Shown here piece after piece: positions 5,711 through 63,450 of a stretch of DNA of 64,000 bases. Source of the DNA: Chrysophaeum taylorii. Lineage: Eukaryota > Sar > Pelagophyceae > Pelagomonadales > Pelagomonadaceae. The notes beneath the pieces are model-generated. The model was not told the origin of the DNA. It did no database searches and saw nothing but the letters and a program-made list of their open reading frames with translations. The stretch covers positions 33,626-97,625 of the forward strand of contig JAQMWT010000115.1 in the NCBI GenBank assembly GCA_029834535.1, in the 5' to 3' direction. Every line of letters begins with the position of its first letter. The stretch's first letter is position 1. The position numbers were made by a program, and so were the translations under genes.

Positions 5711-6936
5711 TAACTACTAATCGACAGATGTTTGTCTGTCTGTTTGTCTGTCTGTCTTTAAATGTCGACTGCTAAGAGGGGGGGGTGTGTGTGGGGAGCA
5801 TGAAGGATGTGGGTGGGTTTGTGGGGTATGAGGGATGTGCCTGACGGGCGGAGATAAGTACGCGGGACCTAGTCGGGGTCATCGCCGAGGCGTGGGGCAG
5901 GCGAAGTTTGTCTGTCTGTCTTTAAATGTCGACTGCTAAGAGGGGGGGGGTGTGTGTTGTCTGTCTGTCCCTCGATTTAGGGTAAGGATCAGGTAGGCGC
6001 GAGAGTAAGGATCAGGTAGGCGCGAGAGCCAGACAGTGATCCTCCAAGCCGTCTACGGCGACCTCGCAGACTATTTCCACGACCCGCGGCGGCTCTTTCA
6101 GCGCGCCATTCTCACGCCCCGTCGAAACGATGTTGTCGATGCTGACAACGCGCGCATGACCACGGCCTTTTTTTCCCGGAGACGAGGCGTCGAAGTTCTT
6201 TTCGGCTGACTACGCTGGGTCGGAAAACGATGCCTCGCTCTTTACAGTAGAGTTTTCAACTCCCTGACAACCAACGGGATGCTGACTTTGAGCGCGAGCT
6301 TAAGGTCGACCCGTCGCACGGCCACTGCAACGGTACCTGATACATGATCGATCGTGTCGTTGTCACCGAGGCTCCTCCAACCTGTATCCCTTAAGGCCCG
6401 CCTACGCCAAACGATCAACAAGAGCCAGGGCCAGACGCCCCGCGAGGTCGGCGTCCTCTTTCCCAAGCCCGTCTTCTGCCACGTCCAGCTCTACGTGGCT
6501 CTCTGTCGATCGGCATCACCGAGGATATACTCATCTGGGTCGACGACTCCACCTTACCCCACACGTGCTGCGCAATACCGATAAGCCCCCTCCCGGCGTC
6601 TACACGCGCACTATAGGTGAACTTGCTGGGACCACGTGAACTTACTGGGGTTTGAGATTGGGACTAGGTGAACTGAGTGACCAGGTGAAACTGGGACCAG
6701 GTGAACATACTGGGGTTTTTAGAGTAAAGGGTTTTTAGAGTAAACTCAAAGGTTGGCGGCGCGTGCGGATCAAAGCAGCTTAGATTGGCGGAGGCGAGAG
6801 CGACGAGCTCAAAGGAGTTTGTGTGAGCTAGGTGAGCTTACTGACCAGGTGAACTTATATGAAACTTACTGGGACCAGGTGAACTTAGTGGGGTTAGAGA
6901 TTGGGACTAGGTGAACTTACTGGCCTGGACTTGTAA
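5711..6936 (+). mobile_element. Helicase-bearing repeat unit, inverted relative to the 58-63 kb array
   Basis: Starts TTAACTACTAATCGACAG followed by TGTCTGTTTGTC runs and ends TTACTGGCCTGGACTTGT. Both ends match the reverse complement of the junctions of the tandem units at 58.3-61.1 kb. Inside, in order: CAGACA-type satellite, two copies of a TTTAAATGTCGACTGCTAAG block followed by a G run (about 5758-5790 and 5921-5955), a broken helicase C-terminus (about 6038-6600), then a region rich in CCCAGTAAGTTCACCTGG-type repeats in reverse complement, with a segment GAGTAAACTCAAAGGTTGG. Similarity to the distant copies is very high by eye, suggesting recent spread. Confidence 0.65.
6038..6600 (+). 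pseudogene. PIF1/Helitron-type helicase C-terminus, frameshifted remnant
   Basis: Reading across frames gives, in order, ILQAVYGDLADYFHDPRRL, QRAILTPRRNDVVDADNAR, a PGDEASE...FSAD block, ASLFTVEFST, CNGT-MIDRVVVTEA (the NGTR region), then INKSQGQTPREVGVLFPKP and VFCHVQLYVALCR. This is the order and wording of the last motifs of Helitron-type PIF1 helicases. Stops and frameshifts separate the blocks, and the ATPase N-terminus (Walker A/B) is absent, so it cannot encode a working helicase. Confidence 0.7.
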
Positions 6937-7582
6937 TAATTATGGTGGTATGGTCGTGGTTGAGTGACAAGAAAGGATATGAATATATATATACGTGGAG
7001 AGGGCACACAGACAGACAGACAGAGAGAGAGAAAGAATGACGGGGTGCGGGAGGACGACTGACTGAATACACACAAAAATCGGCGCCGAGCGATGGGGTC
7101 AACAGGCAGGCCCCACACCACGTCGTCTGGCGAGGACGTTCTTGTCGAATTTTTGAGGCGCTAGGGTACAAGGAGATGCCGTGAGATGGGGCGTTCACGA
7201 GGACAAACGGACGGACGGACGGACGGACGGAGGGGTTCTTCGCTTCACTTTTCACTTTTCACTTTGGGGAGGGACACTGATGATCACGATGATGATCGAT
7301 ACGACTCCATACCTGGAGGAGGAACACGAGGAGAAGAGCGCGTCGCGACGCGGGCCGGAGAAACCGACAAATGACGGACGGACGGGCGGACGAGGGAGCC
7401 AACTTGATGATGATAATGATGATAAGGTTGGTCTTAGGTGGTCGACGCCTTCGATCTCCGCCTTGAGCGCGTCGGTCGTCGTTCGTCGTCTTCCCATCAC
7501 GCGGATGGCGGCTTCGAGGGGAGTGTACACTTTGGGGACGTTTTATTATTTGTCGTTTTTTTTTTTTTTTTTCACAAAAGTG
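6937..7582. other. Intergenic stretch with simple repeats
   Basis: No gene seen. Holds a CAGA/GAGA tract (about 7010-7036), a (GGAC)n tract (7208-7232) and a poly-T run (about 7556-7572) just past the 3' end of the next gene. A minus-strand frame (7252-7530) is serine-rich with no recognisable domain; I do not call it. Confidence 0.5.
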
Positions 7583-8294
7583 CTAGAGCGCGGCGTACTG
7601 GAGGTCGTCGTCGGAGGCGCCGCCATCCCGTCTCGCGCGCAGGACGTCGGGATCGCACCTCGAGACGACGACGCGCGCGGCGGCCTCGGCGAGAACAAAG
7701 CCGAGGGTGACGACGGCGACGAACACCCGGAAGCCGTCGCGGAGCTGCGCGGTCGTGGAAGTGCCGAGTCGCACGGCGATCCAGACGACCGAGGCCGCTA
7801 CGGACGCGCCGAGCGAGGCGCGGCGCGCGTCGACGTGGTCGACCCGCTGTACGGCCAAGCGCGCCGCGACGGCCAAACAGTGCACGATAATGGTCGTCAG
7901 CAGCCATTGCAAAACCCAAGCTGCGCATCATCGTAATCGCGGGATACGAAAGTACTCACGCATGTCGTCCCGACTCATTTCGAGCGAAACGGCGCACGAC
8001 GCGCAGACGAACAGGCCCGCGAGCCAGGATCGTATCTCTCGCGGCAGGGGCTGGTCGTCGGGGCCCCAGAGCACGTAGGTCTGCGGGGACATGACACAGA
8101 GAGAGGGGACGAGAGCTCACGTGGAATCTGATGGTACGGTCGGCCAGAAACCAGGTGGTCGAGGTGGAGGGCGTCTCCTCTTCGGCGTGCTCGCCGCCGT
8201 AGGCCGACCGGGATTCGGTGATGGTCGTGTCGACGCGGTTCAACAGGTCGCTGTAGTAGCCGGCCGCGCCGGCCATGTCGTCCCCAATTTCCAT
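7583..8294 (-). CDS. Orphan four-helix membrane protein (3 exons)
   Basis: Three exons (8121-8294, 7960-8080, 7583-7920) joined by introns of 40 bp (8081-8120, GTGAGC...CCGCAG) and 39 bp (7921-7959, GTGAGT...GCGCAG) give a continuous 210-aa frame. The first third is soluble (starts MEIGDDMAGAAGYYSDLLNR); the rest has four hydrophobic segments, roughly SWLAGLFVCASCAVSL, WVLQWLLTTIIVHCLAVAA, ASVAASVVWIAVRLG and VFVAVVTLGFVLAEAAA. I do not recognise a family and infer only an integral membrane protein. It starts 79 bp from the oppositely transcribed oxygenase gene, suggesting a shared promoter. Confidence 0.75.
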
Positions 8295-8373
8295 TCCACA
8301 CTTTACAGTGAACTTTCTTCTCGAGGCGGTACGTATCTTTGCGCGTCACGACGTCGTCACGCGACGTCATCCC

Positions 8374-14378: not shown

Positions 14379-14496
14379 AATCTGTCTGTCTGTCAGTTTC
14401 TCTAACGGTCTTTTCGATCCAAGACAACAACCCTTACCATCGTTGAAGATCGAGGGAAACTCTAGCTTGCGTAGCAGGATCGCACTACAGAAGACC
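14379..14496. promoter_or_regulatory. Probable bidirectional promoter
   Basis: Only 118 bp separate the start codons of the orphan gene (minus) and the antenna gene (plus). A CTGTCTGTCTGTC tract (14381-14393) sits at the orphan side. No other motif is assigned. Confidence 0.5.
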
Positions 14497-15269
14497 ATGG
14501 CCAAGGTCCTCTTCCTCGCGTCGTGCGTCGCCGCCTTCAAGTAGGTGTCCCCGTAAGCTCGTCTCATCGTCACCGCCGCAGCTTCGGGTCGAAGGCGCCC
14601 TCGAAGTCGTCGTCCGCGCCGACGGGCGTCGGCGCAGAGCGGCCTTCTGCGGCGCTTCCGTGGACGACGACCGTCCTCGACGGGAGCTACGTCGGCGACA
14701 AGGGGTTCGACCCCCTCGGATTCTCCAAGTACGCCCCGGGTGCGTGGTGGTTCGGCGAGGAAGGCGACGGCTCCCTCAAGATCTTCCGGGAGGCCGAGCT
14801 CATTCACGGCAGAATCGCTCAGCTCGCCTGCCTCGGCTGGATCTTCCCCGAGCTCTACCACTTCCCCGGCAACGCCCAGACCGGCGTCGACGCCTACGCG
14901 GCAGTGAACCCCTACGAGGCTGTCGACCGCATCCCTTCGCTCGCCTGGATCCAGATCCTCGCCTTCATGGCATCCCTTGAGATCTTCCGCCTCAACCGGC
15001 TCAAGAACCCCGACTACATCCCGGGCGACCTCGGTCTCGGTCAGGGCGAGGGCCGCTGGAACCCTTTTGGCTTCGAGTACACCGAGGAGGAGTACTACGA
15101 AAAGCAGCTTCAGGAACTCGAGCACTGCCGCCTCGCGATGCTCGGCATCGTCGGCCTCGCCGCCAAGTCCTCGGGCACCGACATCGGCGTCCTTGCCCAG
15201 CTTGGCGAGTCCTTTAGCAAGCCCGAGTACGCCTCCACTGTTGGCTTCTATTTCCCCGAGGGCATCTAA
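14497..15269 (+). CDS. Fucoxanthin chlorophyll a/c-type light-harvesting protein
   Basis: Antenna protein binding chlorophyll and carotenoid in the thylakoid. Exons 14497-14540 and 14582-15269, joined over a 41-bp intron (GTAGGT...CCGCAG), give 243 aa. The leader MAKVLFLASCVAAFNFGSKAP has a hydrophobic signal peptide ending VAA followed by Phe, the hallmark of proteins entering the four-membrane plastid of heterokont algae. Next come DKGFDPLGFSKYAP, helix 1 with EAELIHGRIAQLACLGW (the chlorophyll-binding E-x-x-H/N-x-R), a middle helix and helix 3 with ELEHCRLAMLGIVGLAA. Length and three-helix layout fit the LHC superfamily. Subfamily (Lhcf/Lhcr) is uncertain. Confidence 0.93.
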
Positions 15270-19427: not shown

Positions 19428-19485
19428 AGGAAAAACAGTCCGAAAAAAACCAAAAAGCACACACGGGCGCTGGACGGGCATCCCC

Positions 19486-19700
19486 CCTCTTAGCAGTCGA
19501 GTTTTTTTTAAGCCCCACGACATTCCCTGTCGCAAGACGTCACGTGTGTCCGGCGTATGACCTACGGGCGGTCGGGCCCGTCCGCCTGCCCCGGAGCTAG
19601 GCGTTGACCCCGACTAGGCTCCGCCTTTCAGGCATCCCTCACGTCTCCACCCCTTACAACTAACTGAGCGGGGTACCCACCTCCACCTTCCAGGAGGCAT
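19486..19700 (+). repeat. Fragment of the 58-64 kb repeat family
   Basis: CCCCCTCTTAGCAGTCGA (from about 19487) and the block from about 19556 (CGTATGACCTACGGGCGG, then GGCGTTGACCCCGACTAGG, then GGCATCCCTCAC) match in order the sequence at about 61,558-61,735. It is a partial, diverged copy away from the main array. Confidence 0.65.
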
Positions 19701-28338: not shown

Positions 28339-28382
<44 letters not shown>

Positions 28383-29826: not shown

Positions 29827-30255
29827 CAGTGTGAAATCGGCCGGCGGGTTAAGTGTTTAGGAGTAAACTCAAAGGTTAGCGAACATATGTGCTGAGCAGC
29901 TTAGGTTCGCGGGGGTGAGAGCGTCGGGATGAAATGAGAGTGGGGAGGGCGGGCGTAAGGGGTGAAAGGTGTAAGTAAGGACGGCGAGGCGTTAGCCTAA
30001 AAACCGCCCGGGCGCCGCCAGGGGCCCGGAGGCCGAGAGACGTAGGGGAAACAAGTTGGCGTTTCTGTAAGCGTCTTGGCGCTCCCTGAAGTGCGCCTGT
30101 GCGTAATGCCGTTGCCGGAGGTGGGCGGTGGCTGCACCGCCTTCGACATACTGGGGGCCTGCTACAAGGAGACGGGCACGCTCACGATGCACCGTGAAGG
30201 AGAGACGCCGGTAAAAACGCGTTGTCTGAGCCGCCGGGTTAAGTGTTAGGATGCG
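29827..30255. promoter_or_regulatory. Divergent promoter region carrying a repeat insertion
   Basis: A 20-21-bp direct repeat, CCGSCGGGTTAAGTGTTTAGGA-like (29841-29862 and 30231-30251; the right copy lacks one T), flanks about 370 bp. Just inside the left copy, GTAAACTCAAAGGTTAGC...GCAGCTTAGGTTCGCGG matches the internal segment of the helicase-bearing repeat (about 6737-6800). The block looks like an insertion of repeat-derived DNA between the phosphatase and dynein starts. Confidence 0.5.
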
Positions 30256-33200
30256 ATGGGCCGTCGCGCAACCAAGATCCGATGGGAAAAGCCCGCGCAA
30301 ACCAAGCGCGATGGCCCGTGCGCTCGGTCGGGTCACACCCTCACCTTCGTGGGGAACTCCGGGTTCTTGTTCGGCGGCATCTGCCAAGACGACCCGCAAC
30401 AACAACAACAACAAGCAGTTCTGAAGGGTCGCGCCCTTGATGATCTCCACGTACTCCACCTCGGCAGGACGACCGAGGCGAGATGGCGGCGGATCGAGAT
30501 GCCCGCGAGGCCGCTCGCACGGTGGCGCCATTCAGCATGCATCGTCAACGAAACTCAAATCGTCGTATTCGGGGGCCACCACGCGTCCAATCTCCGACTC
30601 AACGACGTCTGGGTCTTGGACTCGGTCGCGATGGAGTGGACCCAGCCCTACCTCCCGCAGGCCCCGGGATTCACCGAGGACGAGTGCCACCCGCCATCCA
30701 CTGGTGGCGTCCCCGCGGCTCGCGGCGGCCACTCGGCGACCGTCGTCGGAAGGGGCATCTTGGTGTTTGGCGGCTACGGCGGCAACGGCTACTCCCGCCG
30801 GGACCACGACGACCTCCATCGATTGGATGTCGACGACTGGAAGTGGTCCCGCCTCGAACCAACAGGGTGCGGGCCCGAGCGCCGGTGCGGCCACCAGGCC
30901 TGCGCCGTCGAGTCCCGGTTGTTTGTGTGGGGCGGCTGGAACGTCTCGAAACGGTTTGCCGACGTCTTCGTCCTCGATTTTTCCGGCGTCCTCGCGTGGT
31001 CAAAAGTCGGGGACCTCCGCGAGCCGCGATGGAACGCAGCATCCTGTGGCGTCTTGGCTATTCCACATTGGAAAATTTTTGCCTTTGGGGGCTCGAGGAG
31101 GAGGAGGGGTGGTCCCTCGTTGGTGGTGGTGGACCACGAGGATTTGGGCGTCCCGTGCGACGACGTGAGCATCTTCGACGCCGGGACGCTCAAATGGACA
31201 ACGCCCGAGGACGTCGGGGCAGAGGAGGATGCCCCCAGCGCACGGTGCGATTCGGCGCTCGCATTCGACCCTAAATCGTCCAAGTTGGTGTTGTTCGGCG
31301 GATGGTCGAACCAGTGGCTCGACGATCTCTACGCTTTAGACGTGTCGCTCGTCGTCGGTCCACCTTACGCCGTCACCGACGTCCATCCCGCGACGGGACC
31401 CGTCACCGGCGGGACCGTCCTCGAAATCACTGGCTACGATTTCGTCGAGACGCAAGATGTCACGGTTCGGTTCGCGTCGAGCGACCGCGCGCGCGATGTT
31501 AAGGGAACGTTCGAGAGCAAGACGCGCCTTTGGTGCGAGACGCCCGAGTTCTTCGAAACGCCGGGCGATGTCCAGGTCCGCGTTGCTCTCGACGACGACA
31601 GCTTTACCTCGACGTTTCGGCACTTTGCGTATTTTTCAGTCACGGACGCGGCGTGGTCGCTCATTTATGGCCCGGGCGTCCTCTCGGGCGGAACGAGCGG
31701 AGAGGAGACGGTCTTTCGCGTCCAGGCGCGCGACAAGGATAACCGAAACCGAACGACGGGCGGCGACGAGTTCAAGGTCGTCATCACGCACGTCGGGGGC
31801 GGCGATGATGGCGACGACGACGATATCCAGCAGATCCGGAATTTTAGCGTCAACGACATCGGGGACGGCGCGTACGAGGTGACGTACGTACCGCCAGAAC
31901 CGGGCGAGTATTTGATCGTCGTCGAGTTTCTCGGGACGCACCGCGGAGCGAAGGGGGCCGTAAGAGGCAGCGGCGCCGTCGTCGAGTTCAAGGAGTTCGC
32001 CCCGCGCTCGAACAATTCGTTCGCGGGAAAGTTGGTGCGCCAGGCCCTCGAGAAAGACAGCTCGAGAATCACCGCGCTCGTCGACGAGATCGGGAGTGGC
32101 ATCCACGCGGTTTCGCATAGCGACGAATACACCGAGGTTCAAAATCGCAATGCACTGGTCTGGGTCAAGGAGCATCTCAACATGGTCTTCGAAAAGAGAC
32201 ACGAGATCGAGTTGGCAATGGACCGCGTCGCTTGTACGTTAGCGGCTCTCGAGGCTGTCGGCGCGGCGGCGGCAATCGGACCTCTGAGAACGAGACTCGA
32301 TGAACAGCGAGAGGCGTGGACCGCGTGCCAGCGCGACGCGCCAAAAATCGCCGCGGCCATTTCTCCGCTCCTCAAGGCCCAGGCGACGCGCACGAGGGGT
32401 GAGATCGACGAGTATCAAACAAAGGCCCGAGCGATGCTCGACGCGGCGAGGGCCGGTCCGTGGGTCGCGTACGACGTCGGCGCGAGCCGCGCGACCGAAC
32501 TCCTCGACAACGCCTGGGCCGGGTTTAAGGCGGAAGAAAAACGATGTGAAGATACGGCGCGGCTCGCAAAGCTCTTTGGGTGTGCGGAAGAATTCAAGGC
32601 AAGCAACGAGCTCGTCGCGACCGCCGGAAACACGCTCCGAGCCTACTCTGACCTCTGGAAGTGCGCGGCAGAGTGCGACGCGTACGTCCGAGAGGCCGCC
32701 GACATGTTCTGGGACGACATCGAGCCCAAGGGTCTCATCGAAAACGCGCGCCTCGTCCTCAACAAAGTCCGATCGCAAAGCAAGTTGGTCAAGCGCTCCG
32801 ACGCCTACGCCGAGCTCGAGAAATACGCGTACGACTTTCTGGCGGCGTGCCCGTTCGTCGCCAGCCTCAAGCAACCGACCATCGAGCCTCGCCATTGGCG
32901 CGAGCTCCAGGAGGTCGCCGAGGTGGTCGCCACCAGCAATCACGCGGCGCCGCCGGCGCCAGTTATGACGGAGAAAACCACGCTCGGCGACGTTTTGAGG
33001 CTCGAGCTGCCGCGGCACGCCGATCGCGTCCACGAGATCATCGAGAAGGCGACGAGCGAGGCCGCGCAAGAGGAAACGTTGCGCGTCATCTCGGCGTTCT
33101 GGAGCGCCGCAAAGTTCGTCGTTCGCAAGACCAATCATGTTAGTACGCCACTCCTTTCCTTGACCGAGAAAGACGCCGACCAGCTAGAGTCGGACCAGGT

Positions 33201-36200: not shown

Positions 36201-39200
36201 TTCGTATGCCGGGCAAGGATACCGTCTTCGACTATTGGCTGGAGCCGGCGAAGGGTGTCTTTGAGACATGGCGCCAAAGCCCCACGTTTAGCAAGATTGA
36301 CTATGACTCGATCCAAATGCGTATGGATACAATTATGGTACCGACGACGGAAACGGCGAGCGTCACGTTTTGGATGGACCTCTTTCTGCGCAAGTGCACA
36401 CCCTTGTCCCTCGTCGGACCCTCGGGCGTCGGCAAGACACTCATTGTGACGCAGGCGCTGCGCAGTTTCGAGGAGCAACAGGAAACTCGCCATCGGCGCG
36501 TGAGCCTTAATTTCTACAGCACGGCTTCGTCTTTGCGGGAGGAGATCCAATCAAGTCTACACAAGCAGACCGCGAATACCATCGGTCCGCCACCGAGTAC
36601 GCGACGACTCATCTTTTTCATCGACGACGTGAATCTGTCACAAGCGGATGACTACGACTCCCGATCAACGGTCGAGCTCTTGAGGCACCACGTTGAGCGC
36701 GGAGGATGGTTCGACCCTTCGAAACTGAGCTTTGTTAGAGTGGTTGATTGCTGTTATGTAACGTGTGCGACGAACCCCACATTAAACGGCGGCAGTGGCG
36801 TCACCAATGCCCGCGCTCAGCGACACTTCGCGACCTTTGCGATCGCAGCGCCGAGCGGGGTGAGTTTGTTGACAATCTTCCAGACCTTTCTTGATGGCCA
36901 TTTCAGAAAGCAGGCCTTTCCGATGTCGGTGAGCGATGTTGCTCCGACCGTCCTGAAAGCGACGCTCGCGGTGCACAAGGAATGCTGCGTCGCTTTTCGC
37001 AAGACAGCGGCGAATCCTTTGTTCTTTGGATTCAACGCGCGACACGTTGCAAGCGTCTGTCGCGGGTTGCTGCTTGCGCAGCCAAAATCGGGACAGTTCG
37101 ACTTCCCCGAGATGGTCATCAAGCTCTGGTGCCACGAGGTCGAGCGCGCTTACGGTGATGTCTTGACCACTGAGACCGACGTCCTTAAACTCCGCGAGAT
37201 TGTTCGCTCGACCGCAAAGAAATCATTTCTGACAATTAACACGGCGGAGTTGCTCGGGGATGCCGAGCGTGATCCATCAGACAACGGTGACGCTCCGTCA
37301 GTGCTTTGCTTTTGCCACGTTCGAGATGCTGAAACGCTCGTCGAGCCTTGCTACGGCCAACTCGAACAGCTGACCGAGGTGCGCACGGCTATCACGCGGT
37401 CACTTTCCGAATACAACGAAGGACCACATCCAAAGCTGGACGTCATCCTATTTGAAGATGCGCTCTTTCACATAGCCCGGATCATGCGCATAATTTTGCA
37501 GCCAGCCGGGCACGCGCTCTTGCTGGGTCGAGGCGGCAGCGGTCGGCGTACATTGACGCGGCTTGCGGTACGTTTTTGTCACTATGACCTCGTCTGCCCT
37601 TGCATCTCCAACAGTGTCAACGATTTTAAGACGGACCTCAAAGAGCTTTTCATGCGGAGTGGTCTCAAAGAGGAGAACGTTGTCTTCCTCCTGCTGGACA
37701 TGCAAGTGATGGACGATCGACTTCTCGCGCTCGTTGATGACCTGCTTTCGTTAGGTAGCCAGGTGGGAGGCTTATTCACGAAAGACGAAAGGGAGAGTAT
37801 TGCATCAATGATCAACGCGCGAGGTAGGGCGTCCGATGCGACGACCGAGACGTGCTGGCCGATTTTCCTGCAGCAAGTTCGATCACATTTGCGGGTCGTG
37901 TACATAGCTTCGCCATTCGACACGAGATTTCAGTCTCGCGCAAAGCGCTTTCCTGCGCTGATCAATTGTATGATCATCGACACGTTTCGTGCTTGGCCAA
38001 CGCAATCATTCCTTTTTGTGGCAAAGCATCGCCTGAACTTTGAGGAAGAGGTGGTGTCTCCCTTGTTGCGAGATGCCGTTGTAAATTTCCTGCCGCGTGC
38101 ACACCAAATGGCAGAAAATGTGTTCGAGGAGTACAACTACAAGTGCCGCCGGTATCTTGTTATAGGTCCGAAGTTTTATCTCGACATGGTTGACAGCTTC
38201 GTCGACCAGTTCAAAAAGGCTCGCGCCACAAGCATCGAAGCGACCACAATTTACGAGAACGGTCTTGAAAAGCTCCGCGATGCGGTGACATCGCTCGCGA
38301 CGCTCGACCACGATATCCGGGTTTGGAAAAAGGACGCCGACTATAAACAAGAGATTGCCGCGGAACTCGGCCAGCGCGTGAAACAGGACTCGGAGATCCT
38401 CGAGAAGGAAATAGCAGTGAAAGAAGCTAAGGATGCGAAAGTGGCAACAATCGAGGCCGACGTAAAGCGCCGCACCGAAGACGCTGAGGCTGAGCTTGCT
38501 CTTGCGGCTCCGGCTGTCGACGCCTTAAACTCGGCGCTGGACATGCTCACTCGCGAGGAACTCGGCGAGTGCAAGGAAATGCCGACGCTGCCGCGAGGGG
38601 CTGGCGACGTGTGGAGCGCGGTGTGTGTCCTGCTTGCAGGCATCAACAGTGGCGTGGCCGTGCAGAAAGATGGCAACGTGAGAGAAAATGACCGGAGCTG
38701 GGATGCGTGCAAGCGGTCACTTCTTGCGAACATAAATGGACTCATCGAAGAACTCTCGCACTTCAAGTCGCTCATTGACGAAGGTAGGGTTCCGCGCGTG
38801 AACTTTAAGTTCGTTCGCGCGTTTTTGCGACTCGAGCATTTTACCGAGGAGGCAATGGAATCGCAACTTCCCGTCGCCGCCTGTCTGGTCCGCTGGGTTC
38901 GAAATGCCGTCATCTACTTCGATAAGTGGCTAGACGTCGAACCAAAACGCCTGAAGATCGTCCAAGCGACCAAGCGGCTGCGTGAAGCTCAAGCGGCTCT
39001 CGAAGAGCAAGTTAAGCTGGTGGAGAAGCTTCAATCTCAGCTTGATCGGCTCAAGGCAGAGTTTGAGGAGGCAGAAACCGCGAGGGCCGTCGCTGCAGAA
39101 AAGGCCACACGCGGCCAACTCAAACTAGAACTCGGCCAGCGCCTCATCGACGCGGTCGGACTCGAGTGCGAGCGCTGGGAATCGAATCTCCAACGTGTCG

Positions 39201-42200
39201 TGGCCGAACGCGAGTTGCTTGTTGGTAACGCTTTGTTGGCTGCTGCCTTCGCATGTTACTGCGGCGCGCTCGATCCATTAAGACGCCAACAGCTCGTTTA
39301 TGAATCTTGGTTGCCATACCTGGAGACGGCGATGCCCAACGGCTGTGGTATCCCGGTGGTGCCGCACGATCGGCAGCAAACGGTGTCGTTGCTCGCGACA
39401 AATTCTGACGTCGTACGCTGGCAATCAGAATTACTCGCGCGTGACCCATTCTTCCTCGAAAACGTAGCGATCATAGAATGGTCTACGAACCGCTGGCCAC
39501 TCCTCGTGGACCCGCACTTGCACGGTATTTCTTGGATCAAAAAGCACTGCCCAAATTGGCGGGGTGTAAGGCAGACGATCTGTGGCGATGATGTTCGCGA
39601 GGCAAGAGCGAAGTTGCTCGCAACTGTCGCCGACGCTGTAAGGGAGGGTGCGACGCTCATCTTGGAGACACTGGAGGAAATCGATGCTGCGTTGCTGCCG
39701 TTGTGTCGTCGGTCTGTTGTGAGAAAAGCCGGAAAGGAGTACGTCCCGTTCACAGGCGGAGAAGACGTGGAATACAACGCGTCGTTCCGACTTTTCGTAC
39801 AGACCACGCTGACAGCTCCTATGCTCCCGGCGGAGCTGCAGAGCGAGCTTATGGTGGTCGAGTTCGCGGTGACAGACTGTGGCCTCGAAGACCATCTCGT
39901 CGGTTTTATTTTCCGGACGGAAGACCCAGACTTGGCCATACGACGCGTCGGGCTCCTGGCTCAGGTTTGCGAACTTCAGCTCCGAATCTGCGAAATCGAG
40001 GACCAAATTCTCGACAAATTGAACTTGAATGATGTTGAGCCGGCTGAAGATCGCGAGCTCATCGACACGCTCGAGCATTTGGCGATAGAGAGGAGAGATG
40101 CCGTCGCCAACGTCGCAGCTAGCCAGACGTTGGCGGATTCCGTCCGCGCTTTGGCCGAGCGCTTTCGCGAGGTCGCGCGCCGCGGACGTGCCATGTTTTC
40201 ACTCATGCGCCGCTTGTCCTGCTTGGACGGATACTATGTCTATAGTCTTAACCTCTTCGTGGTCCTGTTTCAGCTGGCCATCGACGCTGCCTTTGAGGAA
40301 GAGCAGAGGGAGAAGGTGGGCGCGTCGATCCAAAGCAAGTTGAAGCTCGCGGCGAAGAAAGCGCAGGGTATGCAATCGTTCACCTGGAACGACGACATAC
40401 TCTTACGCGCTCTAGTTCCCAAAGAGGCACATTCCCTTCGAGACCTCCAAGCTGTGGTCGAACAAGTGCTTGCTGACCGCCATGTCTTGTTACCTTTGTC
40501 CAATACAACCGAGAATACGTGTTCGTCCAATGAAAATAGTCATTCTCAGTTGATTACCAAAGCCGTGCTTGTCGAGCAGGATACGATTCGCGCGCGAATC
40601 GAGCAGATGTGCAAATCACTCACTGAGGTGGTGTATCGCCACATGGAACGAGGAGTCTTAGCTCGGGATCGGCTGACATTGACGACTTTGTTAGCGTTCT
40701 CTCTCAACCCCGGTCTCGGTAGCGACGAGATTTCTCTCTTCGTGAACGCGCAACCATGCCGTATGCCGGATCCGCAGCAGATGCCCGCGATGGCGTCTGA
40801 GATCGCATCGTGGTTGCCAGCGCATGTTTGGGAGGGCGTTGTCATGCTCGCTTTAAGCGCTCCGAGTGTTGGAAAGCTCGAGCCCCTGGCGCACCTCGTC
40901 GACGAAATGGGGCACTTCGCCGCGGCATGGTGCGAATGGTACCAGCACGAGGCACCCGAGAGGCGTCCTCTTCCTGGAAAGTTGAACATAGTCGACGAAA
41001 TGGCACAATTGTGTGTGCTTCGAGTCATGCGACCAGATCGTTTGCCAGCAGCGCTGTCCGCATACAACAAAAGAACGCTTGGTGCGTTGTCCCGGCCTGT
41101 GGACTCCGTGGACATGTGCGCCGTCTACGCTGAGAGCTCAGCATCGACACCAATTTTGTTCATGCCGTGCCCTTGCGCCGATGATCCGGCAACGCGTGTC
41201 GCAGCTCTCGGTCGCAAGTTCGATTTTGGGGTGGAACAAGGAACATTGGTTGTGATCGCATGCGGAAGGCACCAAGATGAAAGTCTTGCTGAAGAGTCGA
41301 TAGGCCGCATGGCCGAGATCGGTGGCTGGATCGTCTTGAAAAATGTTCACTTGACGCCGCATTGGATCCCGACCCTCGAGCGCAAGCTCGAGATCGCGAG
41401 TGCGTCCGCCTCGATCAATTTTAGATGCTTTTTGACCGCCGAGCCGGCCCTCCTACCCGAGAGCCTGCATGTCAAATGCGTCAAGATTGCCGACCAAATT
41501 CAGCAGGATCTCGATCTCAACGTGCGCCGCGCATGGCGATGTTTCGATCAAGAATATGTCGACACGTGCGCACATCCACGTCAATTTGCGCGTTGCCTCG
41601 TCGGATTGTGCTTTTTCCACTCTTTGCTCGTGTGCCGGCAGCGCTTCGGTGTATGGCGCCACAACTTCCCGTTAATGGTGTTGCGGCGTGGCGCCCAGGC
41701 GCTCCGCGCTGCGGTCAGCGTCGCACCAAAGGGAGACGGCGACAAGCTGCGAATCCAATGGGATTCGCTTACGCGCAATGTGGGGGACGTCGTATACAGC
41801 GGCGGCGTCCCAGATTATTGGGATCACCAAATCATCACCACCTACTTAGCTCCTCTCTTCGACAATGCCTTCCTTGAACCGAATGCTAGGCTCGTACACT
41901 CGGACTGTTCCGCGCCCGAGATCACATCCAGCTATGCGTTCATAGAGAGGTACCTGGAGGCCGAATCCGAATTCGCCGAGGCGCTTGGCATGCCCGAGCT
42001 CGCGGCGCGTGACTTCTCGACCGCAACAGCGAGTCGCCTTGTCGAGGGAGTTTCGCGGTTTATCGGAGGAGGCGTTCGCGTTCGACGAGATGATCCCCGT
42101 GCTCCAGCGATGGAGATTGTCCAATCGTTTGAAGAAAACATGCCCCACCAATTTCCCATGGCCAGCGTCCGCGGAAAGGCTTCGAATGTCACGGAGGACG

Positions 42201-43063
42201 CTCCAGAGGCGCCTTATGTCGTTGTTGCGGTGCGAGAGTGCGACCGGGCCAACGCTCTCGTCGAGAAGCTCATCGCCGGGCTCGACATCGTCCGTAAGAG
42301 TCTCAGTGGCCAGATCGACACGACGCCGGAGATGGATGAGCTTGCAGAGTCACTCGCGGCGAATCAAGTCCCGGGCTCAAAGCCATTCCACCGCATATCG
42401 TGGCTTGCGTGGCCAACCCGAAAGACGGCCGCCGCGTGGTTCGCGGACCTCCGCATGCGGTTTGACCAGCTTGGTGATTGGGAAGCCAAATTCGAGTTGC
42501 CGTTGGCGATGTGGTTCGCTTTTTTCAACGCACAGGTTTGTCATTTTTTTTTTCGCTGGTAAGAGATTTATTTCCGTCCGCAGGACTTCTTGACGGCGAT
42601 TAAGCTGTTCAACGCGCGACTCATGGTCGTGCCGCTCGACAAGATGGCCCTCGAGACACACGTCTGCGCCTCCTCGAACACGTATCTCCTCGAGAGACCA
42701 ACCCGAGGGGTCTTTATTCGTGGCCTCTTCTGCCAAGGGGCGACCTGGGCCGAGTTAGACAGCCACGAATACGCGGTCGACAATGTCCAGTGCGGTGGGA
42801 TACTGCGAGACGCCGTGGCGCCAATGGACATGTTCCCTGCATCGGAGCTCCCGCTTGTCTATATCCGGGCCGCGGAAGCTGAATCCGATTGGATCTCGCA
42901 CGCGATCAGCGTTGTTCAACGAGATCCCCAACTCTACTGCTGCCCCGTGTACTTGACAAGATCAAGAGGCGCCACCTTCGTCTTTGCCGCCACGCTTAGA
43001 ATAGACGAGCCGCAGTCCAAGTGGATACTCCGAGGAGTAGCCCTCTTAGCGGAACGAGATTGA
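30256..43063 (+). CDS. Axonemal outer-arm dynein heavy chain with kelch/IPT N-terminus (alpha type)
   Basis: Exons 30256-34751, 34805-34932, 34989-42535 and 42584-43063 join in frame to 4,216 aa. Introns are 53 bp (GC-AG: GCAAGT...CGTAG), 56 bp and 48 bp. The tail has kelch repeats (residues about 15-370: SGHTLTFVGNSGFLFGG, GHSATVVGRGILVFGGY, SKLVLFGGWSNQWLDDLYAL), an IPT/TIG domain (about 375-460) and a filamin-like domain (about 475-585), the layout of Chlamydomonas alpha outer-arm chain. P-loops: AAA1 GPACCGKSET (about 1391), AAA2 GERGVGKTT (about 1682), AAA3 GPSGVGKTL (about 2018), AAA4 GRGGSGRRT (about 2388). The stalk coiled coils (about 2650-2730 and 2860-2920) flank the microtubule-binding tip. 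AAA5, AAA6 (LAEESIGRMAEIGGWIVLKN) and a C-terminal domain follow. AAA1 lacks several canonical residues (see findings). Confidence 0.93.
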
Positions 43064-44495
43064 ATGCTAGAGCCCATTGACGATTAGATTAGGTCCGTTT
43101 GATAGCGAGATGGTTGTCAGTCAAGTCGCGGTCTCAGCGTCGCATGGCGACAGATGTCAAATCTCTGCCGACGCTCCTTTCAGAGCCCCTCTTCACTTTC
43201 CCAGTGATTCTAATCCCGCGCGCTACGGCGCTGAGATTAGCCTATGCCCCAAGCAATGGGCTGGCCTATAGTTAGCTTATTTTAGGCTGGATATCTACGT
43301 AGCAGTGATGTCTCGAGCGTCCCCTTGGATGTGTGTTGCACGACCCTTAGACATAAGAGCGCACCACTTCCAGAGTTCAATGGCGTGAGGTGCGGGTCTT
43401 CTTGAAGCACGGAACATCAGACCAGTCACTGTTTCCCTACTTTTAGAAACTGTTTCCAGTTACGTCTCGAGGCGGTTGTGGGATTATGACGTTGGCGCGG
43501 GCCTCGCGGTACTCCGAGCCGACGAATAGCTCGAGGCGACCAAGCGTGACAATAATCACGGAACATTTCCACACGAGACAGATTCAGAAAGCTTTTGCGT
43601 GTGTCAATCCTTCTCACGAGCTCCGCGGCGCTCTCGTTGTCAATTCGATTACCTGTGTGCGCCTTCTAGAATAAGAATAGAATCCTTGTCTCGAGGAGGT
43701 CGTCGACATCTAAAGCCCTCCTGCTCCTCATCGATCAAAGTGTGTGCTGGAATAAAGGTGAATTTCAATAGCGCGCTCAAGAGGGCAGGAAGCCAAGCCC
43801 TGATGTCAAGGTAGTTTAGAGTCCATTCGACTGTCAGCTTTACCGCAAACGACTTTTCCTCTCGAGTCGTTGCCTCCGCATCCACATGAATTAATTTGAT
43901 CAGCTGCGTTACTGACAAAACGGTTCATCTTGAACTTTTGGGGCAAAATCAAGTTCCGGAGCTGATCCTGACTGACTATGAGAAATGTTCGGAGTTTTTT
44001 TTTTATCGACTGCGAAGTGTGGGAGGGAAATACGAAAACATAAAATCGCGTGGGGAGAGAGGCCGCCAGAGGCTCGCACCCCGAGTGTGCTTGCTGCCCC
44101 CCCACTCTAGTTGCTCGCAGTCGACTTTTATTTCACTCCGAAAGAGCCTGGGCGGGATCGCCGCCGGAGGATCGTTGACACGCGTGTACGCCTCCCGTCC
44201 GCGCACGTGCATTCCTTTGCATAATGAGCGCGCAGAGGACCGTACTCCAAAGAGGCGAGAGGCTTCTTCACACGCACGACCGTCAAAATTCCCGATAGTT
44301 TGTTTGCCCTCCGTATATATGTTGTGCGCACCAACTAGAAATGAATCGCCGGATCGTGGGACATGCTCTTACACAAAACAAACATAATTACCACCCAATA
44401 AGCCGAAAGCAGTTGGTTGCATAAGTACGCATCTCTTCGGTCTGTCGAGAGCCAGGGGTTTCCGCGACGTGAGCTCCTTGATAAACGGGTCATCA
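43064..44495. other. Gene-poor stretch
   Basis: No complete gene seen. It includes one possible reverse-transcriptase remnant (43649-43918) and otherwise short frames on both strands with no domain. Confidence 0.45.
43649..43918 (-). pseudogene. Possible reverse transcriptase fragment
   Basis: An 89-codon frame ends with LIDEEQEGFRCRRPPRDKDSI, which resembles the I-x-x-x-Q-x-G-F-R-x-x-R motif of non-LTR retrotransposon reverse transcriptases. The preceding AWLPALLSALLKFTFIPAHT fits the helix ahead of that motif. No catalytic FADD-type motif is seen in the flanks. Weak call from one motif. Confidence 0.25.
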
Positions 44496-54747: not shown

Positions 54748-54816
54748 TGCGGCGGCGTTGATGACGAGAGGTAATGATGAAAAGAAAAAAAGGTAAGGGT
54801 CAAAAGCGAGGGGAGC

Positions 54817-55698: not shown

Positions 55699-55841
55699 TC
55701 ACGTTCACCCCTTTTTTATCATATATACGGGTGTGGTGGAGGTCTCGTGCGTGTGTAAGCGTGTCGGCGCGCGTCGCCGTGGTGAGCGTGCGCACGACGA
55801 CGACAGCGGCGGGGCCATTGTACGCGAGGGGGGGGCGTCGT

Positions 55842-55880
55842 CGTCATCATCATCATCATCATCATCATCATCAGCATCAG
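55842..55880 (+). repeat. (ATC)n microsatellite
   Basis: About ten ATC/CAT units in the intergenic gap between IMP4 and the PH-domain gene, plus two imperfect ATCAGC units. Confidence 0.85.
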
Positions 55881-55967
55881 CATAATACGACGCGACGCGA
55901 GGCGACGTGAGGCGAGCGCCCCCCACGAAGGAGAATAAGAAAAAAAAGCAGCAGCAGGAGGAGGTGA

Positions 55968-57005: not shown

Positions 57006-57086
57006 CTCCTCAAAAAATAAGATCAATCGAACCCTGCGATCGATCAATGCGCAAAAAAAAAAAATTCGGCACCACCAATCCGTTGA

Positions 57087-58222: not shown

Positions 58223-58296
58223 GAGAGTCAACACAAGGGTTATCAAAAATCGACTACTACCAAGAAGCCCCTCTTACCAGTCGACATTTAAAGACA

Positions 58297-59260
58297 GACA
58301 AGTGCAGGCCAGTAAGTTCACCTACTCCCAATCTCTTACCCCAGTAAGTTCGGCGTAAACCCACTCGTGCTCACACCCACTCACCCCACTCTCCTTTGAG
58401 CTCGTCGCTCTCACCCCCGCCAATCCAAGCTGCTTTGATCCGCACGCGCCGCCAACCCTTGAGTTTACTCTAAACACCCCAGTAAGTTCACCTGGTCCCA
58501 GTTAGTTCACCTGGTCCCAGTTAGTTCACCTGGGCACTCAGCTCACCTAGTCCCAATCTCTAACCCCAGTAAGTTCACCTGGTCCCAGTAAGTTTACCTA
58601 CAGTGCGCGTGTAGACGCCGTGAGGGGGCTTATCGGTATTGCGCAGCACGTGTGGGGTAGGGTGGAGTCGTCGACCCAGAAGAGCATATCCTCGGGGTTG
58701 CCGATCGACAGAGAGCCACGTAGAGCTGGACGTGGCAGAAGACGGGCTTGGGCAAGAGGACGCCGACCTCGCGGGGCGTCTGGCCCTGGCTCTTGTTGAT
58801 CGTTTGGCGTCGGCGGGCCTTAAGGGATACAGGTTGGAGGAGCCTCGGTGACAACGACACGATCGATCATGTATCTGGTACCGTTGCAGTGGCCGTGCGA
58901 CGGGTCGAGGTTGCGAAGACTTTAAGCTCGCGATCAAAGTCAGCATGCCGTTGGTTGTCAGGGAGTTGAAAACTCTACTGTAAAGAGCGAGGCGTCGTCT
59001 TCCGACCCAGCCTAGTCAGCCGAAAAGAACTCCGACGCCTCGTCTCCGGGAAAAAAAGGCCGCGGTCATGCGCGCGTTGTCAGCATCGACAACATCGTTT
59101 CGACGGGGCGTGAGAATGGCGCGCTGAAAGAGCCGCCGCGGGTCGTGGAAATAGTCTGCGAGGTCGCCGTAGACGGCTTGGAGGATCACTGTCTGGCTCT
59201 CGCGCCTACCTGATCCTTACTCTCGCGCCTACATGATCCTTACCCTAAATCGAGGGACAA

Positions 59261-59291
<31 letters not shown>

Positions 59292-59314
59292 AACATCTGT
59301 CGATTAGTAGTTAA
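58297..59314 (-). mobile_element. Helicase-bearing repeat, tandem unit 1
   Basis: Starts ACAAGTGCAGGCCAGTAAG and ends CATCTGTCGATTAGTAGTTA before the next unit's identical start. In order: short CCCAGTAAGTTCACCTGG-type repeats, the AGTTTACTCTAAA segment, the broken helicase fragment (about 58620-59190, minus strand, INKSQGQT and VFCHVQLYVALCR visible) and CAGACAGACAAA satellite. About 1,018 bp. Confidence 0.7.
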
Positions 59315-60372
59315 GACAAGTGCAGGCCAGTAAGTTCACCTAGTCCCAATCTCTAACCCCAGTAAGTTCACCTGGTCCCAGTAAGTTCACCTAGTCCCAA
59401 TCTCTAACCCCAGTAAGTTCGGCGTAAGCCCACTCGTGCTCACACCCACTCACCCCACTCTCCTTCGAGCTCGTCGCTCTCACCTCCGCCAATCTAAGCT
59501 GCTTTGATCCGCACACGCCGCTAGCCTTTGAGTTTACTCTAAAAGCCCAGTAAGCTCACTTGGTCTCAGTAAGTTCACCTGGTCACTCAGTTCACCTAGT
59601 CCCAATCTCCAACCCCAGTAAGTTCACCTGGTCCCAGTAAGTTCACCTACAGTGCGCGTGTAGACGCCGGGAGGGGGCTTATCGGTATTGCGCAGCACGT
59701 GTGGGGTAGGGTGGAGTCGTCGACCCAGAAGAGTATTTCCTCGGCGTTGCCGATCGACAGAGAGCCACGTAGAGCTGGACGTGGCAGAAGACGGGCTTGG
59801 GCAAGAGGACGCCGACCTCGCGGGGCGTCTGGCCCTGGCTCTTGTTGATCGTTTGGCGTCGGCGGGCCTTAAGGGATACAGGTTGGAGGAGCCTCGGTGA
59901 CAACGACACGATCGATCATGTATCTGGTACCGTTGCAGTGGCCGTGCGACGGGTCGAGGTTGCGAAGACTTTAAGCTCGCGATCAAAGTCAGCATGCCGT
60001 TGGTTGTCAGGGAGTTCAAAACTCGACTGTAAAGAGCGAGGCGTCGGCTTCCGACCCAACCTAGTCGGCCGAAAAGAACTCCGACGCCTCGTCTCCGGGA
60101 AAAAAAGGCCGCGGTCATGCGCGCGTTGTCAGCATCGACAACATCGTTTCGACGGGGCGTGAGAATGGCGCGCTGAAAGAGCCGCCGCGGGTCGTGGAAA
60201 TAGTCTGCGAGGTCGCCGTAGACGGCTTGGAGGATCACTTTCTGGCTCTCGCGCCTACCTGATGCTTACTCTCGCGCCTACATGATCCTTACCCTAAATC
60301 GAGGGACAAACAGACAGACAGACAGACAAACAAACAGACAGACAAACATCTGTCGATTAGTAGTTAGGATAA
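59315..60372 (-). mobile_element. Helicase-bearing repeat, tandem unit 2
   Basis: About 1,058 bp, nearly identical to units 1 and 3. Helicase fragment about 59660-60238 (minus). It ends CATCTGTCGATTAGTAGTTAGGATAA. Confidence 0.7.
59660..60238 (-). pseudogene. PIF1/Helitron-type helicase C-terminus (best-preserved copy)
   Basis: Minus strand gives ILQAVYGDLADYFHDPRRL, RAILTPRRNDVVDADNAR, PGDEASEFFSAD, CNGTRYMIDRVVVTEA, INKSQGQTPREVGVLLPKP and VFCHVQLYVALCR across shifting frames. Equivalent fragments lie at about 58620-59190, 60460-61040 and, more worn, 62850-63412. All keep the same frame breaks, so they were amplified after inactivation. Confidence 0.7.
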
Positions 60373-61112
60373 GACAAGTGCAGGCCAGTAAGCTCACCTA
60401 GTCCCAATCTCCAACCCCAGTAAGTTCACCTGGTCCCAGTAAGTTCACCTACAGTGCGCGTGTAGACGCCGGGAGGGGGCTTATCGGTATTGCGCAGCAC
60501 GTGTGGGGTAGGGTGGAGTCGTCGACTCAGAAGAGGATATCCTCGGGGTTGCCGATCGACAGAGAGCCACGTAGAGCTGGACGTGGCAGAAGACGGGCTT
60601 GGGCAAGAGGACGCCGACCTCGCGGGGCGTCTGGCCCTGGCTCTTGTTGATCGTTTGGCGTCGGCGGGCCTTAAGGGATACAGGTTGGAGGAGCCTCGGT
60701 GACAACGACACGATCGATCATGTATCTGGTACCGTTGCAGTGGCCGTGCGACGGGTCGAGGTTGCGAAGACTTTAAGCTCGCGATCAAAGTCAGCATGCC
60801 GTTGGTTGTCAGGGAGTTCAAAACTCGACTGTAAAGAGCGAGGCGTCGGCTTCCGACCCAACCTAGTCGGCCGAAAAGAACTCCGACGCCTCGTCTCCGG
60901 GAAAAAAAGGCCGCGGTCATGCGCGCGTTGTCAGCATCGACAACATCGTTTCGACGGGGCGTGAGAATGGCGCGCTGAAAGAGCCGCCGCGGGTCGTGGA
61001 AACAGTCTGCGAGGTCGCCGTAGACGGCTTGGAGGATCACTGTCTGGCTCTCGCGCCTACCTGATCCTTACTCTCGCGTCTACCTGATCCTTACCCTAAA
61101 TCGAGGGACAAA
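60373..61112 (-). mobile_element. Helicase-bearing repeat, tandem unit 3 (truncated)
   Basis: Same start, but lacks most of the CTAGTCCCAATC/AGTTTACTC segment and the terminal satellite; the sequence departs after CGAGGGACAAAC at about 61112. Helicase fragment about 60460-61040 (minus). Confidence 0.7.
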
Positions 61113-61615
61113 CGATCGGCGCGCAGCGCAAGTCCACTCCGAATACCTTGCTCACGCCCGCGGCATCGACGCCATCATCCCCCAGCCGGGTACAGCACCA
61201 CCGCCTGGCTTCTTGGGCCCTGTCGAACAGCGGCTACGTAGCTACGGCACCGTCGCCGGCCTCGTCTTTGGTGCCTTCGGTGAGGCCAGCGCGGCGTGCC
61301 ACGCTCTCGCCCAAACATGCGCAGAGCGCATCGCTGCGCGAACCTGGGTGACAAGCGGCTGCGCCAACTTCACAGAGGCAAAGGCGGCCCAAACTCGCCG
61401 CATCTACCGTGAGTGGGGGATCGCCAACGCATTAGGCCGGGCTCGCTGTGCCCTCACCGCCCTCACCCATGTCGCCGCCTCGGGGAACCCCGCCCAGGCC
61501 GCCCGATCCCAGCAGGACGTCACCCTTCGTCGCACATACGTCCGGCGGCAGCATGCGTACGACCTACGGGCGGGGCCCGTCCTCTCTTCGCTGCCCACGC
61601 CTCGGCGATGACCCC
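61113..61615 (+). pseudogene. Truncated unknown reading frame within the repeat array
   Basis: An open frame through 61611 reads LRSYGTVAGLVFGAFGEAS, then an Ala-rich helical segment, TEAKAAQTRRIYREWG and ALTALTHVAAS. It has no ATG start and no known domain. The G-A-F-G-E-A-S block reminds me of C-terminal extensions of algal retroelement-like proteins, but I cannot support that. Its 3' end is shared with the fragment at 19,556. Confidence 0.35.
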
Positions 61616-61699
61616 GACTAGGTCCCGCGTACTTATCTCCGCCGTCAGGCACATCCCTCATACCCCACAAACCCACCCACATCCTTCATGCTCCCCACA

Positions 61700-62000
61700 C
61701 ACCCCCCCCTCTTAGCAGTCGACATTTAAAGACAAACAGACAGACAGACAAACAAACAAACAAACAAACAAACAAAAAACATCTGTCGATTAGTAGTTAA
61801 GAAAACCCACCCACATCCTTCATAATCCCCACACACACCCCCCTCTTAGCAGTCGACATTTAAAGCTCCCCACGACGAACAATACCGACCCCACTCTTAG
61901 CGTCGACATTTTTAAGGAACAGCAAACTCCCCTCCCTCTTTAGCATCGACATTACAGACAAACAGACAGACAAACATCTGTCGACAATATAAGCAAAAGG
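61700..62000 (+). repeat. CAGACAGACAAA satellite with CTCTTAGCAGTCGAC blocks
   Basis: Four successive degenerate copies of a CCCTCTTAGCAGTCGACATT block (about 61711, 61846, 61894, 61938), three of them closely followed by CAGACAAACAAA or CAGACA tracts, with CATCTGTCGATTAGTAGTTAA at about 61779-61800. Confidence 0.7.
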
Positions 62001-62010
62001 TGACGGTAGG

Positions 62011-62487
62011 AATGCCGGTCTGGTGTGTGCGAGTGCCCTGGGCTATATTATACCCCTGTGCTTCCCAGCATAGTGAACGTGAACATCTGGGCTGTCAAGC
62101 ATGTATCTGTATGGAGACGATGGGGACCCCGACAGACGACGACGCGCCGTCTGCTTACGACCCACATCTAGCGTCGTAAAGAATACCCCGGTCCTGGTAA
62201 GTGAAAGAGCCCAGATGAGGGGGGTCGTGTGTTGTGCTAGACGATTGGGGCTCCAGCAGTTGGCGATGCAACTGCTTCGAAGGCAATCACAGCGCAAAAG
62301 ACCATCCTTGCGCGCGCGGTGTTGCGGATTCGTAACGCGCGATCCCTTCGAGCGCTTTAAGGGCCATTACCAACAGTCTGGGTTGTGACTAGGAATGCCG
62401 GTCCGGTGTGTGCGGTGACCGGGGCTATATACCCCCTGTGCCGGGCCTGGTGTGTGACGAGTGCCACGGGCCTATATATCCCCCTTT
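62011..62487 (+). repeat. Three related ~45-bp blocks with TATATA
   Basis: GGTCTGGTGTGTGCGAGTG...GGGCTATATTATACCCC (62023), GGTCCGGTGTGTGCGGTG...GGGCTATATACCCCC (62402) and CCTGGTGTGTGACGAGTG...GGCCTATATATCCCCC (62437) are diverged copies. A short frame (62043-62297 minus) has no domain. Confidence 0.6.
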
Positions 62488-63450
62488 GTTAGGACATGCA
62501 GGCCAGTAAGTTACCAGTCCCATCTCTAACCCTCAGTAAGTTTCACCTGGTCCCAATCCTAACCCCAGCAAATTCGGGGTAAACCAATCCAACCCCCGTA
62601 AGTTCGGCGTAAACCCACACCCACTCTCCTTTGAGCTCGTCGCTCTCACCCCGCCAATCTAAGCTGCTTTGATCCGCACACGCCGCTAAGCTTTGAGTTT
62701 ACTCTAAAAGCCCATTAATTCAACTTGGTCTCAGTAGTTCACCTGGTCCACTAACCTTCACCTAGCCCAATCTCTAACCCATAAGTTCACCTGGTTCCCG
62801 TAAGTTCACCTGTTCCCAGTAATTCAACCATAGTGCGCGTGTAGACCCGGAGGGGGCTTTCGGTATTGCGCGGCACGTGGGGTAGGGTTAGTCGTCGACC
62901 CAGAAGAGTATATCCTCGGGGTTGCCGATCGACAGAGAGCCACGTAGAGCTGGACGTGGCAGAAGACGGGCTTGTGGGCAAGAGGACGCCGACCTCGCGG
63001 GGCGTCTGGCCCTGGCTCTTGTTGATCGTTTGGCGTAGGGGGCCTTAAGGGATACAGGTGGAGGATGGAGGCAACCGACACGACACATCAGTGATGTATC
63101 TGGTACCGTTGCAGTGGCCGTGCGACGGGTCGAGGTTGCGAAGACTTTAAGCTCGCGATCAAAGTCAGCATCCCGTTGGTTGTCAGGGAATTGAAAACTC
63201 GACTGTAAAGAGCGAGGCGTCGGCTTCCGACCCAACCTAGTCGGCCGAAAAGAACTCCGACGCCTCGTCTCCGGGAAAAAAAGGCCGCGGTCACGCGCGC
63301 GTTGTCAGCATCGACAACATCGTTTCGACGGGGCGTGAGAATGGCGCGCTGAAAGAGCCGCCGCGGGTCGTGGAATAGTCTGAGAGGTCGCCGTAGACGG
63401 CTTGGAGGATCAGTGCCTGGCTCGCGGGCCTACCTGATCCTTACCCTAAA
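62488..63450 (-). mobile_element. Helicase-bearing repeat, degenerate unit 4
   Basis: Same order of parts as units 1-3 (CATGCAGGCCAGTAAG start, CCAATC and AGTTTACTC segments, helicase fragment about 62850-63412), but with many small deletions. Confidence 0.65.

Follow-up and report, generated by a model that had tools for sequence, protein, structure and literature searches.

Probable non-autonomous Helitron-superfamily elements with atypical ends, three of them in a tandem run, in Chrysophaeum taylorii

In a stretch of 64,000 nucleotides from the pelagophyte Chrysophaeum taylorii (assembly GCA_029834535.1, contig JAQMWT010000115.1, positions 33,626 to 97,625 of the forward strand), hereafter the window, five copies of one element (U0 to U4) are present, as established by repeat search, self-BLAST and end strings, which bears out what a first-pass annotation of the same DNA had proposed. 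With a probability that we put at about 0.85, these copies are non-autonomous elements of the Helitron (rolling-circle) superfamily, namely internal-deletion derivatives that have retained their own 3' part rather than units having captured a helicase. Direct support comes from the common ends, from a decayed helicase of the RepHel (Rep-helicase) type lying in sense orientation before the 3' end, and from the occurrence of copies in both orientations at separate places. Judged by its helicase sequence, the family is a member of the Helitron superfamily, and its ends fit neither of the described classes.

Regarding the general anatomy, the element starts at its 5' side with TCYTAACTACTAATCGACAGATG, followed by a GTTT/GTCT microsatellite and a C module (TTTAAATGTCGACTGCTAAGAGG), after which come a D module, the end of an antisense open reading frame (ORF), the helicase body, iterons of about 19 bp and finally CCTGCACTTG (Table 1). 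The C module is found at six places in the window, five of them exact, when none is expected with up to three mismatches allowed. The 5' end string TTAACTACTAATCGACAG occurs at four places (three exact and one with one mismatch; 0 expected, three mismatches being allowed), and U4 has a diverged version of it at 63,960-63,979. At no more than one mismatch, the 3' end string CCTGCACTTGT has five places against 0.75 expected: it is exact in U1, U2 and U3 and has one mismatch in U0, and a further match with one mismatch at 35,948, lying inside a dynein ORF, was discarded as a copy of the element; U4 ends with CCTGCATG. The shared, defined ends announced by the first-pass annotation thus hold for U0 to U3 and are diverged in U4, the string of the first copy being at 5710 instead of 5711, and the size of about 1 kb given there for the unit does not apply uniformly.

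Table 1. Copies of the element, parts of copies and remnants, with their positions in the window; in flanks and junctions, a slash marks a limit of an element.
Feature	Position	Strand	Description
U0	5,708-6,933	+	isolated element, 1,226 bp; flanks GCGCGTTA/TC...CTTG/TAATAATT; order of parts: 5' end, microsatellite, C, D, ORF tail, microsatellite, C, D', helicase body, iterons, 3' end
U1	58,299-59,316	-	tandem, short form, 1,018 bp; order of parts: 5' end, microsatellite, helicase body, iterons, 3' end
Iteron region of U1	58299-58600	-	repeats of about 19 bp (AGGTGAACTTACTGGGACC), reaching the 3' end
Helicase C-terminal body of U1	58597-59262	-	corresponding body in the other four copies
U2	59,317-60,369	-	tandem, short form, 1,053 bp
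U3	60,375-61,802	-	tandem, long form, 1,428 bp; most iterons missing
ORF end inside U3	61024-61611	+	antisense to the helicase; 195 aa from stop to stop
U4	about 62,495-63,979	-	degraded; about 1,485 bp by its limits
Behind the 3' end of U1	58268-58298	-	microsatellite and C module, directly adjoining
Directly upstream of U3	61803-61990	-	remnant: 5' end, microsatellite, C-like repeats, D
Old remnant	19485-19640	-	C module (34/42 columns) and ORF tail (59/78 columns)
Old remnant of iteron region	29853-29959	+	81/107 columns identical

The copies come in several forms. U0 and U4 have a common order of parts though they are about 56 kb apart and in opposite orientation, and in both a second block of microsatellite, C and D' replaces the body of the antisense ORF; U4 is further interrupted by about 190 bp of inserted sequence (limits set by eye: 63505-63690). 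Part of this insertion (63,556-63,665) is about 75% identical (83/111 columns) to 43,106-43,210, behind the dynein ORF, and the insertion would be either another dispersed repeat or a captured piece. In U1 and U2 the microsatellite is joined directly to the helicase body, all intervening parts being missing, and the GTTTGTC-like sequence at the join is as expected from a deletion between short repeats. The antisense ORF of U3 (GLVFGAFGEAS...), the first part of which lies within the helicase body, has no relative in Pfam or the PDB and may represent a second gene of the autonomous element. With gap columns omitted, the helicase bodies of U1, U2 and U3 are 98.35-98.65% identical to one another, that of U0 is 96.0-96.9% identical to these three, and that of U4 92.5-94.1% identical to the other four. 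Frame breaks are common to the copies, as initially noticed, to which must be added private ones, namely an 11-bp deletion in U0 and further indels in U4. In the helicase body of U4 (62828-63460), differences are patchy between near-identical stretches, one patch containing ACATCACTGATGT, a pattern that local template switching or conversion could leave.

The assignment to the superfamily is carried by the helicase, of which four pieces were submitted to Pfam with E-values up to 10 allowed: one matched a helicase family, one matched BALF1 and two matched nothing. The INKSQGQT piece finds the Helraiser transposase by phmmer with an E-value of 9.2e-8, the next best matches being Pif1 chains at 0.033. 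The LRNLDPSHGHCNGTR piece corresponds to Pif1_2B_dom in Pfam (E 1.1e-5, 25.4 bits for a cut-off of 23.9); this Pif1_2B_dom match, also identified by SLRNLDPSHGHCNGTR, resembles Helraiser weakly as well (E 0.86), from residue 1354, and as the Helraiser match of the INKSQGQT piece begins at residue 1423, the order of the pieces is kept. These two pieces lie in different frames, and the distance from motif start to motif start, counted by hand, is 118 nt in U2 vs. about 216 in Helraiser. The helicase C-terminus is read in sense orientation and no other coding segment separates it from the 3' end, which is the place that it would have in an autonomous Helitron. No unit has an open transposase gene; as far as the sequence tells, the helicase remnant is Helitron-type, cut down and dead. 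The PIF1/Helitron-type helicase end of the first-pass annotation is therefore retained for these two pieces (Helraiser and Pif1_2B_dom) and not for the two upstream ones, and the similarity of the INKSQGQT piece emerges with phmmer and not with Pfam profiles.

How such a unit came to bear the end of a helicase gene admits two explanations. The first-pass annotation viewed it as the capture of a dead helicase end, and the match to Pif1_2B_dom would suit a unit having acquired its helicase part from the 3' end of a host PIF1 gene; this is extremely unlikely, considering that the E-value obtained with Helraiser is lower, by about five orders of magnitude, than with any PIF1 chain of the PDB and that the helicase stands in sense orientation next to the 3' end. 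Since it is in this orientation and directly before the 3' end, a residue of the element's own gene is the simpler explanation, and the idea of capture is best given up for that of internal deletion. An autonomous RepHel element would have undergone internal deletion with its 5' end and 3' part kept, and the resulting units would be moved by the RepHel protein of a full element located elsewhere in the genome. Such a protein would nick at the TC, unwind the DNA and end at or near CTTG, where the iterons may take over the role that a hairpin usually has.

Amplification of a subtelomeric repeat by exchange between chromosome ends, the helicase piece then being incidental, had also been envisaged. 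Several copies and remnants are indeed concentrated at 58.3-64 kb, towards the right edge of the window, but nowhere in the window do three consecutive TTAGGG or TTTAGGG units occur, with up to three mismatches tolerated, and copies or remnants are also encountered at 5.7, 19.5 and 29.9 kb among genes. U0 is an isolated copy and older scraps with corresponding parts lie elsewhere in the window, so that this origin, for which the window offers neither support nor a telomere tract, appears very improbable.

Regarding the ends, the 5' TC typical of Helitrons is present in all copies, within TCYTAACTACTAATCGACAG in U0 to U3 and TCCTTATAATTAATCGACAG in U4. In U0 and U4 (flanks CCTTTA/TCC...CATG/TCCTAAC for the latter), an A precedes the TC and a T follows the last base, a coincidence with a chance of about 0.0016 from base composition; these two copies, which are those outside the tandem run, fit an insertion between A and T, and with the limits as placed here their flanks are A and T, not TT or TTTT. 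Asymmetric or subterminal inverted repeats are absent from U0 to U3, where the first 35 nt compared with the last 100 nt of each element give scores of 4-5 that 701-993 of 1000 shuffles reach, and no palindrome occurs near the 3' end of these four copies out of the five. At the 5' end, a 6-bp stem (GACAGA/TCTGTC) can be drawn in three elements out of U0 to U3, the first 60 nt of U3 being without it, and folding is no better than in shuffled sequences (43 of 200 as good for U0, 164 of 200 for U3). By eye, the 5' end and the reverse-strand C module have TCTTA and TCGACA in common; reading the 5' modules as akin to a miniature inverted-repeat transposable element was rejected for the whole element, the 3' end having no such repeat. 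Reading the element in the opposite orientation, which would bring the possible hairpin to the 3' end, was likewise rejected, as the 5' TC would be lost and no CTRR gained.

Several observations weigh against the assignment to the Helitrons. The 3' end is CTTG in four of the five copies and CATG in the fifth, not CTRR. No 3' hairpin is supported: when the terminal 59-60 nt of U0 to U3 are folded as DNA, 69-166 of 200 shuffles do as well, and three of these four copies have no exact 5-bp stem in their last 70 nt, U1 having only stems that begin 41 and 50 nt from the end. The argument from A and T flanks concerns two copies, with a limit that we placed with the TC rule in mind; in U3, TTT precedes the TC, and the sequence following U4, TCCTAAC, may be where a further element begins, and not host DNA. 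As for the helicase, no Pfam family is matched by the INKSQGQT piece at E-values up to 10, and the two upstream pieces reveal no helicase in Pfam, nor does the one also tried in the PDB. One of the two gives BALF1 (E 0.087, 13 bits for a cut-off of 25.8), with chance-like matches only in the PDB, the best being a designed protein at E 0.012. These two upstream pieces may bear a likeness to PIF1-type helicases. Furthermore, no autonomous copy was found within the 64 kb searched. The full Rep-helicase element that had been sought, like any Rep or helicase family, did not appear among the 12 long ORFs or among 94 of the 195 ORFs of at least 90 aa outside the named genes, in a scan that is weak for decayed genes, as it included the INKSQGQT ORF of U2 and matched nothing in it. 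Finally, everything rests on 64 kb, with four of the five copies inside a single 6-kb cluster.

In element orientation, U3, U2 and U1 follow one another head to tail, as first described, in a run extending over 58,299-61,802 instead of 58.3-61.1 kb, the third unit being longer than supposed. The junction between U2 and U1 is precise (CTTG/TC), and between U3 and U2 there are five additional bases, TCTTA when read in element orientation. Given that these are Helitron-family elements, serial insertion followed by conversion has about an even chance of being the way in which the run arose: it would have grown by repeated insertion at the AT preceding an existing 5' TC, thereby giving the precise CTTG/TC junction, with gene conversion afterwards. 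The first-pass annotation pointed out that head-to-tail tandems are a known by-product of rolling-circle transposition. In such a concatemer, the transposase would miss the 3' end, the element would be copied repeatedly and the multimer would insert once. The CTTG/TC junction is as expected for such a concatemer; the helicase bodies of the array are mutually closest, three sites marking U1, U2 and U3 against U0 and U4; what is probably a further truncated start follows U1; and this is the explanation published for tandem Helitrons in bat, silkworm and plants. If a single concatemer had been inserted, though, the copies of the array should group over their whole length, and the variable sites are mosaic. 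In the quartet of U0, U1, U2 and U4, nine of 16 sites pair U1 with U0 (vs. U2 with U4), five pair U1 with U2 and two pair U0 with U2, and the kinds of sites are clustered along the element (six runs vs. a shuffle mean of 10.1, P 0.015). U1 thus looks partly like the sublineage of U0 and U2 partly like that of U4, with homogenised patches. To this are added the long form of U3 vs. the short forms of U1 and U2, and the five extra bases between U3 and U2.

Not all sites agree with serial insertion, which is not proven: sites 316, 456, 668, 908 and 934 group U1 with U2, and some of the informative sites fall among the iterons, the alignment of which is uncertain. Within the helicase body, five sites join U3 to U2 in opposition to U0 and U1 and one site speaks against this, and the quartets with U4 give 4:3 (U1, U3) and 4:0 (U2, U3), the latter favouring the array. 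The mosaic test, devised after the alignment had been seen, omits gap columns, as well as U3 wherever iterons are included, most of its iterons being missing. On balance, the mosaic pattern is modest evidence against a single, recent rolling-circle concatemer, the by-product interpretation becomes doubtful, if still the more credible of the two alternatives considered here, and repeated insertion beside an existing 5' end together with gene conversion is at least as likely. The other alternative is unequal crossing over after one duplication, that is satellite-like growth without further transposition; long identical stretches common to the tandem copies and clustered site patterns suggestive of exchange between copies are what it would leave, but the U2/U1 junction falls exactly at the element ends, and crossing over multiplies junctions without creating any, which still requires a first precise joining and makes this route unlikely. 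In the literature, two adjacent maize Helitrons were judged to be independent insertions (PMC2267711), and for three tandem copies in Metarhizium the choice between both routes was left open (PMC5148889).

Besides the five copies, the piece adjoining the 3' end of U1 is probably the truncated start of a further element. Upstream of U3, several diverged C-like modules are seen by eye in a row, as if the 5' module multiplied alone, and in the remnant at 19.5 kb the order of parts resembles, again by eye, that of U0 and U4. Beyond the window, the 5' end string has no exact match in viral or prokaryote genome contigs and the C-module string none in viral contigs; the helicase piece gives nothing in phages by tblastn, and in viral contigs none of its 59 candidate stretches, nor any of the 13 for the antisense ORF of U3, was confirmed. 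These collections cover viruses and prokaryotes, and absence from them says little on a eukaryotic transposon. Rfam returned no match.

Among the genes surrounding the elements, two ORFs of 1504 and 2555 aa (30,250-34,764 and 34,895-42,562, + strand) together cover the greater part of a dynein heavy chain that has Kelch repeats at its N-terminus. Their great length implies few introns; judging by this dynein, the host would have flagella. Other ORFs encode a coproporphyrinogen III oxidase, a nicotinate phosphoribosyltransferase, a P450 and a sulfatase, and one of the 94 further ORFs matches the chlorophyll-binding family. We take the latter, on the basis of a motif, to be the ORF at 14,475-15,266, whose best PDB matches (best 60 of 166) are fucoxanthin chlorophyll a/c proteins, with a best E-value of 9.1e-68, in keeping with an ochrophyte alga as host. 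With its start 108 bp upstream of the coproporphyrinogen III oxidase ORF, counted from the first ATG (5599-5708), U0 may lie in the promoter region of this gene.

The detection programs described in PMC3627910 and PMC2267711 look for TC, hairpin and CTRR, and a family with the present ends would therefore escape them. For the question of how tandem Helitrons form, the array offers a test on a small scale, since serial insertion should leave another tree than a rolling-circle concatemer would. Otherwise, this is an ordinary decayed transposon family and a known kind of mobile DNA. A partial survey of the open-access literature met no described ochrophyte family with such ends, and several other publications mention algal Helitrons. 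It is conceivable, though unlikely, that ochrophyte algae harbour a separate terminal class, in which TC and a GTCY-like microsatellite form the start, 19-bp iterons and CTTG take the place of hairpin and CTRR at the 3' end, the iterons mark the rolling-circle stop, and loose termination explains tandem runs.

Canonical Helitrons, i.e. Helitron1, with Helraiser/Helibat1 and maize HelA (definition in PMC13286980; ends of Helitron1 and Helitron2 in PMC3627910; Helraiser ends, circles and hairpin as terminator in PMC4778049 and PMC5876387), resemble the present elements in the RepHel-type helicase end, the 5' TC with a nearby TACTAA, the fit to A/T insertion and the precise head-to-tail junction, but differ in that the 3' end is here CTTG instead of CTRR, without a hairpin 10-15 bp before it. 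With the Helitron2/Helentron group and its non-autonomous HINE, DINE-1 and Cg_HINE members, whose structure, deletion derivatives and clusters are described in PMC4067079, are shared the GTCY-like microsatellite near the 5' end (for HINEs, see PMC7492417), internal tandem repeats, a possible 5' hairpin, deletion derivatives and clusters; unlike this group, the present elements have neither asymmetric or subterminal inverted repeats nor a 3' palindrome, and have A and T at their flanks instead of TT or TTTT. FoHeli3 to FoHeli5 from Fusarium oxysporum (PMC5148889) start with TGCCT, end with CTCCTGT and possess inverted repeats of 13-16 bp, unlike the elements described here, yet they too combine a 5' hairpin, only possible in our case, with the lack of a 3' hairpin, and FoHeli3 has an extra ORF in opposite orientation upstream of the transposase gene, to be compared with the ORF end in U3. 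As for proto-Helentron-Pi, an oomycete element of mixed traits from Phytophthora infestans (PMC4067079), it starts with TT, ends with CTAG, is coding and measures about 14 kb, all of which sets it apart; it has in common with the elements of C. taylorii a stramenopile host, A/T insertion, which the flanks of the latter fit, and a mixture of Helitron and Helentron traits.

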